From IMG/VR virus record IMGVR_UViG_3300025102_000384, positions 1 through 20,137 of that record: 20,137 nucleotides of DNA. One strand, 5' to 3'. The notes beneath the pieces are model-generated. The model ran no database searches, was not told the DNA's origin, and worked only from the letters and a program-made list of their open reading frames with translations. This document shows, in pieces, positions 478 through 4,453 of the stretch; within the stretch, counting starts at the first letter, position 1; each line of letters starts with the position of its first letter. This stretch comes from a virus. Made by a program: the position numbers and the translations under genes.

Positions 478-910
478 TATCTCTGAAGCCTTTATTCTCT
501 AAAAGTCCCCATGCGCCTAGATAGATTCCCCATTTTGCATCATCTATGTTAGAGGTATTGACTGATATGGTCTTCATTCCGTAGATGGCATCGTAAGGGA
601 TGATGAGAAACTCATTGGTTGGCATACCAACGAAGATATAAACATCTATATCGCATCTGTCATGGATAGTTTTTTTAGAGTGGCCTCCCCTGATAGTCCA
701 CTTGTAGGCCTTTTCGTTGCCTGAAGGGTGGTTAAATTTGGTGGCAGACTTGATTTGCACCTTATGAGTGAATCTGCCTTTAGTTATTATTCTATCGTAG
801 GGGGCGTAGTCTCCTTCGGGAGTGGATACGAACCAATTACGTTTGATTAATTCAGCGGTGACAACGCATTCAGCGGCTGTTCCTAGCTGCTTGTTATGGT
901 GTGTTCCCAT
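461..910 (-). CDS. PD-(D/E)XK family endonuclease
   Basis: A 149-residue protein whose first 60 residues match the pattern of small PD-(D/E)XK nucleases related to the I-Ssp6803I / PDDEXK_5 group. A helix carries GTAAE (Glu14), followed by the strand containing Asp39 (APYDRII) and the Q-x-K strand (VQIKSATK, Gln52 and Lys54). These would be the metal- and phosphate-binding residues. The rest is a mixed alpha/beta tail with Trp-rich segments. The gene starts inside the end of the helicase gene (17-base overlap) and is probably translated with it. Such enzymes act as homing endonucleases, Holliday-junction or branched-DNA nucleases, or restriction-like enzymes. The coupling to the helicase favours a role in DNA replication or recombination, which is inference. 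Family call fairly firm, substrate unknown. Confidence 0.7.
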   Translation of the reverse strand: MGTHHNKQLGTAAECVVTAELIKRNWFVSTPEGDYAPYDRIITKGRFTHKVQIKSATKFNHPSGNEKAYKWTIRGGHSKKTIHDRCDIDVYIFVGMPTNEFLIIPYDAIYGMKTISVNTSNIDDAKWGIYLGAWGLLENKGFRDTIQDH

Positions 911-2261
911 AGCTGTCTACGGGAATGTCTACTACAGGTGAAGCGTCTCGCATCTTGGTGTACTTTGGGACGAACTCAATATTGATTTCACCCACTGGGC
1001 CATTCCTCTGTTTGGCAACTATGAGGGACAAGGGGTATGGTTTTCCGTCAGACATGTCAACGTCATTATCCCTATGGAGCATAACTACTACGTCTGCATC
1101 TTGTTCTATTGCTCCTGAGTCTCTGAGGTCTGTTAGGCGAGGTTTACGTTCGTTTATGGTTCCAGCGCGGGAGAGTTGAGATAAGCAGACTACGGGTACG
1201 TTTAAGTCCTTTGCTAGGGCTTTTAGTTGTGATGACCAGTATCCTACTTCTAGGGCTCTGGTTTCAAATTTCTTGGAGGATGATATTATCTGGAGGTAGT
1301 CGATTACGATTAGGTCTATGCCTACGTCACGCTTAAGTCTTTTGGATTTAGATTTAATATTATGGATGGTGCAGGTTCCGCTATCGTCGACGAAGATTGG
1401 GCGTTTACCGATGAGGTCAATGCCAGCCTGAATCTTCTTCATATCATCTTGGGAAAGGTTGCCTTTGAGAGCGTCACGGTAGTCGAGGTTCATCTCGGAG
1501 CAGATGGATCGCATTTGGAGTTGAGCGGCTGTCATCTCTAGGGAGAAGAACAGGACGTTATGACCACGGGCTGCTGCTGCATCGGAGATGCAGAGACCGA
1601 GTGAAGTTTTGCCTACGCTTGGCCTAGCGGCGATGATATTCAGTTCACCTTTGTTGAGTCCTGAGATCATCTGATCGAGGTTGTATAAGCCAGTAGTGAT
1701 TCCCTTGATGCCACCTTTACGGTTGAAGCAATCAGTGAAGAACTCCACGGTATCCTGCCTAATGTCCTTATAAGCCCTTACAGACGTTTCTGAATCCCTT
1801 ACCTTGCACAGACCCTCTGCTCTTTCAAAAAGCTCTTCTAGTACCCCTGTGGGCTTAGCACTGGGGTCTTGTGCTATCCTTGATGATACCTCATCACATA
1901 GTGACTTGGTTTCCCGCTTCATTTTTGTTTCTTGCAGGATTTCCAGATAGTACTCCCAGTTGAGCGGGGAGGGTGTGATGCTCTCGCATTCATCCACGAA
2001 CTGGATGTTCTGGTGGATATTGTTTTCGATGAACTTGCGATTGATGGTGACTTTATCTATCAGCCGATCTTTGTCGTATAGGTCAAGTATCACCAGCATG
2101 TGATTCTTGCAGATCGGATCGGTGAATAGATTAAGCGGCCTATCTTCCCTCGTAAGCAGCTTGTCTAAGATTTGGGGGTCTAGAAGAATACAACCGATCA
2201 GTCCTCGCTCTGCTGTGTAATCTTCAAGATGGTCTAGCTTTTTATTATTTAACCTCTGCAT
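894..2261 (-). CDS. dnaB: DnaB-type replicative DNA helicase
   Basis: A 455-residue RecA-fold helicase that would form a hexamer and unwind DNA 5' to 3' at the replication fork. An N-terminal helical domain (about residues 15-150, with RGLIGCILLDP near 19-29) resembles the DnaB primase/loader-interacting domain. The motor domain follows: Walker A ARPSVGKTS (212-220), the FFSLEM segment (238-243), Walker B LIVIDYLQI (317-325), the LSQLSR sensor (360-365) and the PRLTDLRDSGAIEQDAD arginine-finger region (374-390). Length is typical of DnaB. The start ATG at 2261 directly abuts a GAGG, too close for an ideal ribosome binding site, so translation may depend on upstream reading. It lies just past a TA-rich region and an iteron-bearing initiator gene, and overlaps the nuclease gene downstream. 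Phages with their own helicase bypass host helicase loading; that is known for the family. Confidence 0.95.
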   Translation of the reverse strand: MQRLNNKKLDHLEDYTAERGLIGCILLDPQILDKLLTREDRPLNLFTDPICKNHMLVILDLYDKDRLIDKVTINRKFIENNIHQNIQFVDECESITPSPLNWEYYLEILQETKMKRETKSLCDEVSSRIAQDPSAKPTGVLEELFERAEGLCKVRDSETSVRAYKDIRQDTVEFFTDCFNRKGGIKGITTGLYNLDQMISGLNKGELNIIAARPSVGKTSLGLCISDAAAARGHNVLFFSLEMTAAQLQMRSICSEMNLDYRDALKGNLSQDDMKKIQAGIDLIGKRPIFVDDSGTCTIHNIKSKSKRLKRDVGIDLIVIDYLQIISSSKKFETRALEVGYWSSQLKALAKDLNVPVVCLSQLSRAGTINERKPRLTDLRDSGAIEQDADVVVMLHRDNDVDMSDGKPYPLSLIVAKQRNGPVGEINIEFVPKYTKMRDASPVVDIPVDSYGNTP

Positions 2262-2337
2262 CCTCGTTAATTATATTGTACTACTATAGATGTTAATTTG
2301 TGTTATAGATATATATATATATATAGATATATATGTG
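2262..2337. other. TA-rich stretch, likely DNA-unwinding element
   Basis: The 76 bases between the winged-helix stop and the helicase start are almost entirely A and T, with an alternating TA run near 2309-2334. It directly adjoins the iteron array on the helicase side. In lambda-type origins an AT-rich element beside initiator-bound iterons melts first; the same layout here suggests this role by analogy. Confidence 0.6.
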
Positions 2338-2760
2338 TTAAGAGAATTTAGCCGCAGTTGCGCCCATTCCGCCGATAAAAATGTCCTGAACTGGGTCTTT
2401 AGACTCAACTGTTGAGTTCATTGACTCAACACTTGAGTCATCTGACTCAGTAACTGAGTCTTTATACTCAACTTGAACTGGGTCATTTGACTCAACTACT
2501 GAGTCATTAGACTCACCTATTGCGTCAATTGACTCAGTTGTATCTAGACCTGAGTAGGTGGATACCTTGGAGCGGTTATTGGTCTTGATGACTAGCTGTT
2601 TGGATATCAGCGAGGGCAATCTTTTACTAATTGCTTTACGAGTCATACCTGTTTTGTAGGACAATTTGTTTATAGACATATCGTCTTCACATAACAGGGC
2701 TGCGTATATGCGAAAGCTCAGTGGGTCGAGCTTCGTTCGGTTAAGTTGATCTACTGTCAT
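2338..2760 (-). CDS. Winged-helix DNA-binding protein, probable replication initiator
   Basis: A 140-residue protein in two parts. Residues about 14-70 form a winged helix-turn-helix: a helix (LSFRIYAALL), a second helix (SINKLSYKTG), a recognition helix (RKAISKRLPSLISKQL) and a wing ending in VSTYSGL. Residues 74-124 are an acidic, disordered-looking heptad series of the ES-x-D-S type (for example IGESNDS, VTESDDS, TVESKDP) encoded by seven 21-bp DNA repeats. The tail is QDIFIGGMGATAAKFS. The repeats look selected as DNA rather than protein, because their palindromic core is the conserved part. The gene precedes a helicase gene, which fits an O-like initiator that recruits helicase. A transcriptional repressor is the main alternative. 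A terminator-like hairpin and U-run end five bases upstream of the start, suggesting attenuation. Confidence 0.7.
   Translation of the reverse strand: MTVDQLNRTKLDPLSFRIYAALLCEDDMSINKLSYKTGMTRKAISKRLPSLISKQLVIKTNNRSKVSTYSGLDTTESIDAIGESNDSVVESNDPVQVEYKDSVTESDDSSVESMNSTVESKDPVQDIFIGGMGATAAKFS
2392..2541. repeat. Seven tandem 21-bp palindromic iterons
   Basis: Units start at 2392, 2413, 2434, 2455, 2479, 2500 and 2521; all are 21 bp except the fourth, which is 24 bp. Each holds an inverted repeat, consensus TGAGTCA-NN-TGACTCA. The third unit is perfect (TGAGTCATCTGACTCA); the others have one to a few changes, such as TGGGTC, TGCGTC or TACTCA. Twenty-one bases is two helical turns, so all palindromes face the same side, apart from a three-base offset after unit 4. 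A longer near-duplication places 2387-2430 and 2474-2517 87 bp apart, so the array probably grew by duplicating a block of about four units. The array lies wholly within the coding sequence. Confidence 0.9.
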
Positions 2761-2763
2761 TGT

Positions 2764-2801
2764 AAAAAAAAGACCCCCTTGCAGGCCAGATTGCAGAGGT
2801 C
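2764..2801 (-). terminator. Intrinsic terminator or attenuator before the winged-helix gene
   Basis: Read leftward, GACCTCT (2801-2795) pairs with GGGGGTC (2778-2772), extended inward by GCA/TGC, and is followed at once by eight T residues (2771-2764). Two of the outer-stem pairs are G-U in the leftward RNA but would be C-A mismatches in a rightward RNA, so the structure fits the minus strand. It ends just before the winged-helix ATG at 2760, which suggests an attenuator for the replication block. Confidence 0.6.
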
Positions 2802-2917
2802 GGCTACTAGAAAAGCGAGAAACTAGCTAAGCCATAGGCCCGTAAGGGGGTGTAAAATACTGTTGTTCTTCTTCTTCCTAGCCGATAGCCTGCGGGTAGC
2901 AGGCAAGTAACCTCTGC
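2764..2917 (-). ncRNA. Structured leader RNA or small RNA candidate
   Basis: The leftward transcript can form several long pairings. GCAGAGGT (2917-2910) is fully complementary to ACCTCTGC (2800-2793). TCGGCTA (2885-2879, minus strand) pairs with TAGCCGA (2806-2800). A strong hairpin lies between them (GCCTGC/GCAGGC, 2904-2888). ACCCCCTT (2851-2844) pairs with AAGGGGGT (2780-2773). The first and last helices cross, giving a pseudoknot, and both compete with the terminator at 2801-2764. It could be a cis-acting attenuator for the initiator gene or a free small RNA ending at the U-run. It matches no RNA family I recognise. Confidence 0.5.
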
Positions 2918-2969: not shown

Positions 2970-3713
2970 ATGCAAAGCAATGAAAAACTCCTGAAAAACA
3001 TAGCAGAAACAGGAGTTATCAGTTTGCCTCAGATGAAGCTTGTATGGGAGGTCATGCAGGAGCAGATGCTCGAAATGATGGTCAACAAGCAGGATTCCAT
3101 TGATCTAGGATTTGCAGAAATTTATCCGATCCCGTACCGAGCTAACTGGAAGAATGGGCTCTATGATGAGTTCAAATCGCTTGGCCAAGACTTCAAAGGT
3201 AAGGGCCATGAGGCGTGTGTGGAGATAGCTCAGGACAAAGGATTCTGGGCTGAGATGAGCAACACCAGACTACTGGCATTTAAGGACGATCACATCTATT
3301 GGACGATAGAGGTGGTTCCTAAAAAGCAGTGGTGGGCAAGCACCATAAAGGCAGAGAAGGAAAAGAGAAGTAAGCTATCGGCAGCAGATTATTGTAAGTA
3401 TGTGGCCAAGCTAATTTATAAACTGAAAGGAAAACTGTTAGATGTCTATCGTTCGTTTGTATCGCAAGCGGCTATCCCGTGCGGGGGCATTCGCAATAGT
3501 CGCGTTGCAGGGGGCCACTTCCTTGTGCCGTTCATTAGGTCTCGCCAAGTGTCTGCCAAGCATCCTGAGAACAGGGGGCCAGTTGATGTGGTGGTCAATC
3601 TTCGGGATGCCTTACACGCAAACGGTGGACTCGACCACACGGCTGGCGAGATACCGAGAGTGTTGGCAGTGTCCGATATTCAACCCCAAGAGAAAGACTT
3701 GCGGGAGACATGA
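2970..3713 (+). CDS. Hypothetical protein with suspect 3' end
   Basis: A 247-codon frame of unknown function. Residues 1 to about 157 look like a normal, mostly alpha/beta protein with Trp- and Lys-rich segments (PIPYRANWKNGLYDEF, IYWTIEVVPKKQWW). After about residue 158 the frame lies over the next gene, whose own frame (from ATG 3442) looks far more protein-like, and the composition here becomes odd (GGIRNSRVAGGHFLVP). A TAG at 3439-3441, in the next gene's frame, stands directly before ATG 3442. A one-base shift near the AAAA at 3431-3434 would end this protein there. So the true product may be about 157 residues, with a frameshift or sequence error. The ATG at 2970 has no close ribosome binding site. 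It begins a rightward cluster divergent from the replication block. Confidence 0.6.
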   Translation: MQSNEKLLKNIAETGVISLPQMKLVWEVMQEQMLEMMVNKQDSIDLGFAEIYPIPYRANWKNGLYDEFKSLGQDFKGKGHEACVEIAQDKGFWAEMSNTRLLAFKDDHIYWTIEVVPKKQWWASTIKAEKEKRSKLSAADYCKYVAKLIYKLKGKLLDVYRSFVSQAAIPCGGIRNSRVAGGHFLVPFIRSRQVSAKHPENRGPVDVVVNLRDALHANGGLDHTAGEIPRVLAVSDIQPQEKDLRET

Positions 3714-3819: not shown

Positions 3820-4453
3820 TACTGGAGTAATACCCGATGGTGGGACAGTCGATGTCCCAGATAGTAACCCCGTAGAAGTACCGCCTACTAAGGGATTATT
3901 TTCAAATAAGGAAGCTAAACAAGCAGCGGCCGAAACAGGATTAGTAGCTTTAAAAAGAAAAAAGTATGGGGAGCTAAAGAAGCTAGGAGACTTTATAGAG
4001 AAGGAAGGGGTAGTTAAGACCAGTATAGGGTATGTATTCCTATCAGCGGAGAAGCTGGAACCTCTTATGCAACTAGCGGCAGATATAGCATACGAATCAG
4101 ATGACGAGACTGTTAAGTTAACAGCTATAAGCAAAGCGGTTGAAGTATCCAAGCAGTTAACAGAATCAGCAAAAATCTGTAGTAATATGGTAAATGCCAA
4201 ACAGATCAAGCCAGAGGAGGCTAAAAAGAAAGCCAGCTTTGCTGCTGGACAAGTAGTAGCACCAATTCAAATCAATGACCCAAAACAAGTCAATATCACA
4301 GGAGGAGAGTCTGACAACGGAACAGGCGAGGGAGGCAATAATGGAAACGCTCAAGGCGATGCAACACAAGCCGAGCACAACATTCCTCGCGGGGATAATG
4401 TCGCAGGCACTGGGCCTAAAGACGGGAATGGCAAAGAAGGCAATCAAGTATAA
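3812..4453 (+). CDS. Hypothetical helical protein with Gly/Asn-rich tail
   Basis: A 213-residue protein from ATG 3812; an in-frame TTG at 3803 is a less likely start. Residues about 30-150 are helical and rich in K, E and A (SNKEAKQAAAETGLVALKRK, LEPLMQLAADIAYESDDETVKLTAISKAVEV). The last 55 residues are low-complexity Gly, Asn, Asp and Glu. It begins within the end of the Cys-rich gene, and its disordered tail is encoded by DNA that also encodes the start of the next gene. Position shortly before the large terminase gene and a helical build make a small terminase subunit conceivable, but no family signature is visible. Confidence 0.65.
   Translation: MSDTGVIPDGGTVDVPDSNPVEVPPTKGLFSNKEAKQAAAETGLVALKRKKYGELKKLGDFIEKEGVVKTSIGYVFLSAEKLEPLMQLAADIAYESDDETVKLTAISKAVEVSKQLTESAKICSNMVNAKQIKPEEAKKKASFAAGQVVAPIQINDPKQVNITGGESDNGTGEGGNNGNAQGDATQAEHNIPRGDNVAGTGPKDGNGKEGNQV

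Follow-up and report, generated by a model that had tools for sequence, protein, structure and literature searches.

Lambda O and the phage replication initiators like it are large proteins, coupled to the replicative helicase through a separate domain or a loader. In lambda itself the iterons lie within the gene for O (299 aa), with an AT-rich region 3′ of them, and the gene that comes next encodes the loader P, not a helicase. In P22 the initiator gene, gene 18, encodes an O-like protein of 271 aa, contains the origin (annotated at 32840-32984), runs long past it, and is directly followed, in the same orientation, by gene 12, which encodes a DnaB-like helicase. Lambda iterons are inverted repeats, and the copy number of such iterons varies, with four in lambda and six in Stx phages (PMC7466680). 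The gp38-gp39-gp40 system of SPP1 has its oriL repeats inside gene 38, an AT-rich unwinding element, and a DnaB-family helicase of its own (PMC6316719). SPP1 gp38, the origin-binding protein, has 256 aa, the loader gene 39 stands between its gene and that of the helicase, and there is a second origin, oriR.

The locus described here lies in a viral DNA of 20,137 bases (positions 1-20,137 of IMG/VR virus record IMGVR_UViG_3300025102_000384), the whole of which is referred to below as the window. Positions 2262-2541 very probably constitute, as judged from sequence comparison, a theta-type origin situated within the very gene that encodes its initiator, of the kind exemplified by lambda O and P22 gp18. 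The locus shares with lambda the in-gene iterons and the AT-rich region 3′ of them, with P22 the order and orientation of initiator and helicase genes, the helicases being 31% identical across most of their length, and with SPP1 the combination of origin repeats inside the gene of the origin-binding protein, an AT-rich element and a phage-encoded DnaB-family helicase (PMC6316719). It departs from the known kind in that the initiator is small and has no visible C-terminal partner domain, the spacer is not part of the gene, and the iterons have naturally switched from one type to another. Thus, in contrast to P22, the initiators of the window and its relatives have only 115-140 aa, the last full unit is followed by no more than about 30 residues, the AT-rich element is outside the gene, and there is no significant full-length similarity to gp18; unlike in lambda, neither a loader nor a C-terminal domain is evident, five to seven units are set at a fixed 21/24-bp pitch, and, compared with the lambda O kind, the AT-rich element lies beyond the gene and not within it; and, unlike in SPP1, no loader gene intervenes and a search for further iteron clusters found none.

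The original prediction had listed the phage-borne helicase as a difference from P22 and the palindromic iterons as a difference from lambda, and both points must be withdrawn, given that P22 gene 18 directly precedes the DnaB-like gene 12, that lambda iterons are themselves inverted repeats (PMC7466680), and that the palindrome is weak in one of the two iteron types described below. Its remark that the initiator is about half the size of lambda O (140 against 299 aa) does identify a real difference. As for its suggestion of an undescribed family, the phages do appear to be without described relatives, as tblastn with the initiator, portal, terminase and capsid proteins gave zero matches among 50,697 phage records, but the kind of origin, that of lambda O and P22, is known.

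An iteron array inside the probable initiator gene

The initiator gene (2338..2760; MTVDQLNR...AKFS, 140 aa) is an open reading frame (ORF) on the minus strand, as are the helicase gene, the origin elements and the leader hairpin described below, and its start and stop are kept in relatives. It is the first gene of its operon, beside a divergent intergenic region, and is separated by 76-77 bp with no ORF inside (in the window and close relatives) from the gene of a 455-aa DnaB-type replicative helicase (894..2261; PF03796, E 3e-83; PHROG 19, E 9e-95; 31% identity to P22 gp12), which lies downstream of the initiator gene in every relative whose contig extends that far. The 3′ half of the initiator gene (2392-2536, bases 225-369 of 423) is occupied by seven tandem 16-bp units of the form TGAGTC-N4-GACTCA, with starts at 2392, 2413, 2434, 2455, 2479, 2500 and 2521. 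Read in the direction of the gene, these are unit 1, TGAGTCAATTGACGCA (2521..2536); unit 2, TGAGTCTAATGACTCA (2500..2515); unit 3, TGAGTCAAATGACCCA (2479..2494), after which comes a conserved 24-bp step; unit 4, TGAGTATAAAGACTCA (2455..2470); unit 5, TGAGTCAGATGACTCA (2434..2449); unit 6, TGAGTCAATGAACTCA (2413..2428); and unit 7, TGAGTCTAAAGACCCA (2392..2407). Only unit 5 is an exact TGAGTCANNTGACTCA. Matches to this sequence with at most two mismatches number five against 0.11 expected, and the array of the window is not due to chance. Seven tandem in-gene units had been predicted correctly, but one of their steps (2455 to 2479) measures 24 bp instead of 21 bp, and they are not the strict palindromes originally proposed, with one exact unit in seven and a mean palindromy of 6.3 of 8 base pairs. 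Half-sites are spaced alternately by 9 and 12 bp (mean 10.5 bp), or about one per helical turn, which places them on one face of the DNA and creates dyads between units as well as within them.

The array is followed by a short C-terminal tail of the protein, DIFIGGMGATAAKFS (2341..2385), and then by a spacer of 81% AT (2262..2340), a putative DNA-unwinding element, so that the TA-rich stretch and DnaB-type helicase gene of the original prediction are both borne out. Two conserved boxes mark this spacer: box A, ACACATATATAT in the window and TCACATATATAT in relatives (2327..2338), and box B, TATCTATAACACAA in the window and TATCTCTAACACAA in relatives (2298..2311), 26-27 bp apart, with one A-B pair in the close group of the window and two pairs in most distant relatives.

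Relatives comprise 11 IMG/VR contigs in all. A first scan gave four close ones (L002-L005; initiator identity 77-94%), and a terminase scan together with a profile scan gave seven more (L024, L025, L028, L030, L031, L033 and L124, the last identical to L125 over the compared stretch around the gene); terminase relatives L138-L141 (34-38%), whose contigs contain no helicase, were left out. Two scans of GTDB genomes gave no relative, and when viral contigs were scanned with a helicase profile, most of the matches were helicases of other phages, 30-44% identical. A survey for tandem repeats in ORFs 5′ of the surveyed helicases parsed part of the loci and, as it scored lambda O itself near background, was too coarse to be relied on. 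A search for in-gene repeats in related phages, proposed as a check at the outset, proved positive throughout: all 11 contigs have in-gene arrays of five to seven units with the common step order 21,[21],24,21,21,[21], and all have the AT-rich spacer. Units number seven in the window and L002 and six in L003-L005, which lack one 21-bp unit among units 2-3, such units being gained or lost in frame. Across the whole contigs of four relatives of 42-66 kb, including the divergent promoter region, a second iteron cluster is absent.

The arrays are of two types. Type 1 units, TGAGTCNNNNGACTCA, occur in the window, L002-L005 and L024, and type 2 units, TRTGGAAAATGACCNA or T[AG]NGGAAAANRACCNA, in the six other contigs (L025, L028, L030, L031, L033 and L124); their right halves are alike and their left halves different, and palindromy is clear in type 1 (5.9 of 8 pairs) and weak in type 2. 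The switch from one to the other, probably a single evolutionary event, coincides with changes at initiator residues 35, 39 and 41 (R41 in type 1, W41 in type 2), which resemble a change of specificity. This covariation is only suggestive, since the recognition helix holds no excess of the residues fixed differently in the two types (2 of 9, p 0.61).

A small predicted winged-helix protein

Residues 1-72 of the initiator (2545..2760) form a winged-helix DNA-binding domain according to AlphaFold2 and Foldseek, with pLDDT 84-95 over residues 11-70, a confident fold to about residue 72 and a recognition helix at about residues 41-53 (2602-2640). The ORF and this model agree with the 140-residue winged-helix gene of the original prediction, whose 3′ half holds the array. 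Residues 76-140, encoded by the array, have low pLDDT and are predicted to be disordered; as part of the overall origin explanation, which we consider very probable, the repeat-encoded peptide would be a disordered linker whose main requirement is to stay in frame. Beyond the array, the sole feature conserved in all relatives is the short tail with its K-[FY]-S end, of low pLDDT, and neither alignment nor AlphaFold2 reveals a C-terminal partner domain in addition to it. Even such a short tail could still contact the helicase.

Profile comparisons point to an initiator. PHROG 678, "replication initiation O-like", is matched by all eight members scanned (best E 5.1e-6), PHROG 1032 (replication-initiation) by seven of the eight and PHROG 186 (DnaD-like loader) by six; these matches are modest, and winged helices are widely alike. 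By hhalign, similarity to the single sequences of lambda O (probability 0.5%) and P22 gp18 (1.3%, the match being confined to the helix-turn-helix) is not significant. Foldseek searches of viral models rank an annotated lambda GpO N-terminal protein second, and those of the PDB give ArsR/MarR regulators as the best folds. Taken against the features of lambda O and PHROG 678, the family has the N-terminal winged helix, in-gene iterons constrained as DNA and a 3′ AT-rich element, and lacks a C-terminal domain contacting loader or helicase, and we therefore regard it as lambda O/gp18-like in its working and not as a full-length member. With the P22 gp18-gp12 module it has the gene order in common, but neither the length of gp18 nor its sequence over the whole protein.

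The ArsR/MarR-like folds raise the question of whether the array is a set of operators, bound by an autorepressor of that type and regulating transcription instead of replication. These solved folds are those of palindrome-binding proteins, type 1 units are palindromic, and the gene opens its operon and borders a divergent intergenic region, all of which would suit an autorepressor. The units, however, lie about 224-369 bases inside the gene, the four relatives of 42-66 kb have no cluster outside it, the divergent promoter region included, the PHROG profiles speak for replication initiation and an O-like protein, and the gene order, the AT-rich spacer with its conserved boxes and the helicase suit an origin. 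A purely regulatory array is accordingly improbable in our judgement; an initiator may also regulate its own gene in addition to serving replication.

Selection on the array as DNA

An alternative of a different nature, and one that we consider very improbable, is that the repeat matters at the protein level, as a flexible acidic seven-residue peptide, and that the similarity of its DNA derives from recent tandem duplication. Each unit does comprise seven codons in frame, and whole 21-bp units have come and gone without shifting the frame. A recoding test, in which each gene was randomly recoded 5000 times with synonymous codons drawn from the phages' own codon usage, the protein being kept, nevertheless argues against it. 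Identity between units is 0.72-0.84 as observed and 0.47-0.59 after recoding (z 7.1-10.6), the observed value being attained by none of 5000 same-peptide recodings in any of the nine genomes tested, and palindromy too exceeds its recoded expectation (z 3.9-5.5). The positive control, the four annotated iterons of lambda O put through the same test, gave z 7.0, so that the signal in the family of the window is as large as that of a known case.

Codon conservation leads to the same result. The half-site codons GAG, GAC/AAC and NCA occur in 32 of 32 units of the window and its four closest relatives. In three independent pairs of diverged genomes, the codons of shared residues differ synonymously at 50 of 117 positions of the winged-helix part but at 2 of 45 within the units (Fisher p 4e-7); synonymous change is thus nearly nil in the units and near 50% in the neighbouring domain of diverged pairs, and recent duplication is no explanation for such scarcity. 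Together with the recoding scores, this scarcity means that the array is selected as DNA, beyond what its peptides require.

The encoded peptide, moreover, is predicted to be disordered and differs entirely between clades, ESxDS (ESNDS) in type 1 having become the unrelated [MV]ENDP (MENDP) in type 2. Unit sequence and peptide have both switched while the step pattern is constant, and hence the peptide is not what is conserved. The original prediction had held that it would fail if relatives kept the protein heptads and lost the DNA repeats; the opposite is seen, with distant relatives changing the peptide and keeping the array geometry. Its core, an initiator gene carrying its own iterons and accompanied by an AT-rich element and a helicase, is well supported by the relatives, the recoding test and the conserved spacer.

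Replication neighbours and the initiator leader

For a theta-type origin within the initiator gene, the reading we favour, a stepwise course of initiation can be proposed. The winged-helix domain of about 72 residues would bind the five to seven in-gene units, whose half-sites are about one helical turn apart, and an O-some-like complex would assemble along one side of the helix; the bound complex would strain and open the adjoining AT-rich spacer, whose A and B boxes are conserved; and the initiator would recruit the phage's own DnaB-type helicase, probably by way of the K-[FY]-S tail, with which the observed gene order and tail conservation are consistent. Host primase and polymerase would then complete the replisome. 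Homologues of DNA Pol A, Pol III alpha and the DnaG N-terminal domain are absent from the relatives in searches whose controls were positive, as expected of a user of the host replisome, and one relative encodes SSB, an AAA_24 (RecA-like, Sak4-type) ATPase, a PD-(D/E)XK nuclease and an integrase-family protein. Such a gene content suits a phage that brings its own origin recognition and helicase and relies on its host for the other parts of the replisome.

A further proposal is quite possible, though we hold it tentatively: that a minimal initiator, consisting of a winged helix of about 72 residues and a tail with the translation of the origin between them, loads DnaB directly, with neither a loader nor a C-terminal domain, and that within one phage group its specificity has been rewired from TGAGTCA-type to TGTGGAAAATGACC-type units at fixed geometry, which would provide a natural series for a protein-DNA specificity switch. 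If the minimal reading is true, it shows how little an initiator needs in order to designate an origin and bring in a DnaB ring. As the two iteron types, each with its matching initiator, share one geometry, comparing them also allows one to ask which residues determine origin specificity, and in what way an origin that encodes protein can change its sequence.

Cumulative GC skew, named in the original prediction as a further check, does not indicate the array. In four relatives its minimum lies 2.6-3 kb downstream, on the helicase side (about 24.9 kb in G003, 16.8 kb in G012, 18.5 kb in G011 and about 22.5 kb in G013), the matching place being just outside the start of the window, and this counts, together with the modest PHROG matches and the ArsR/MarR-like best PDB folds, against an origin at the array. 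The minima of these genomes have no shared repeat, and the skew of the initiator and helicase genes runs counter to that of the remainder of their operon. Least probable of all is a partition site, with a TubR/ParR-like winged helix on a centromere array: phage TubR is among the structural neighbours (rank 33) and centromeres are iteron arrays, but the window and five relatives contain no tubulin/TubZ or ParA-type (AAA_31) gene, by searches with positive controls, and the neighbouring gene encodes a DnaB helicase (a ParM/StbA search, whose own controls were silent, carries no weight).

The leader of the initiator gene (2761-2969), between the divergent genes, contains a conserved long hairpin (2774..2850) that pairs its sole Shine-Dalgarno-like GGGGG (2774-2778) with CCCCC (2846-2850) and is followed by U8 and then the initiator start codon. 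Covariation is found in seven pairs with two-sided changes (18 such cells), against one or two pairs in slid controls, and pairing is better on the initiator-sense strand (190 versus 171 of 205 cells). Single-sequence folds are only mildly stabler than shuffles (z about -1 to -1.6), the divergent intergenic region has no match in Rfam, and L024, in which the hairpin is retained, has about 190 additional bases and lacks a U-run ahead of the start codon. From its pairing and position, the hairpin may serve to control how much initiator is made, at translation or by attenuation.

Elsewhere in the window, two pairs of long ORFs overlap out of frame (3442-3713 and 4275-4453; 247/125 aa and 216/147 aa) and are kept in relatives at 67-99%. 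The early operon of one relative encodes a ThiF/E1-like protein (PF00899, E 2e-17; L146:7737-8474, that is G013 27737-28474), with similar ORFs in G003 and G011, and two genomes contain very large unannotated ORFs, of 4353 aa (G013 39828-52889, L147 region) and 4000 aa (G011 37726-49728).
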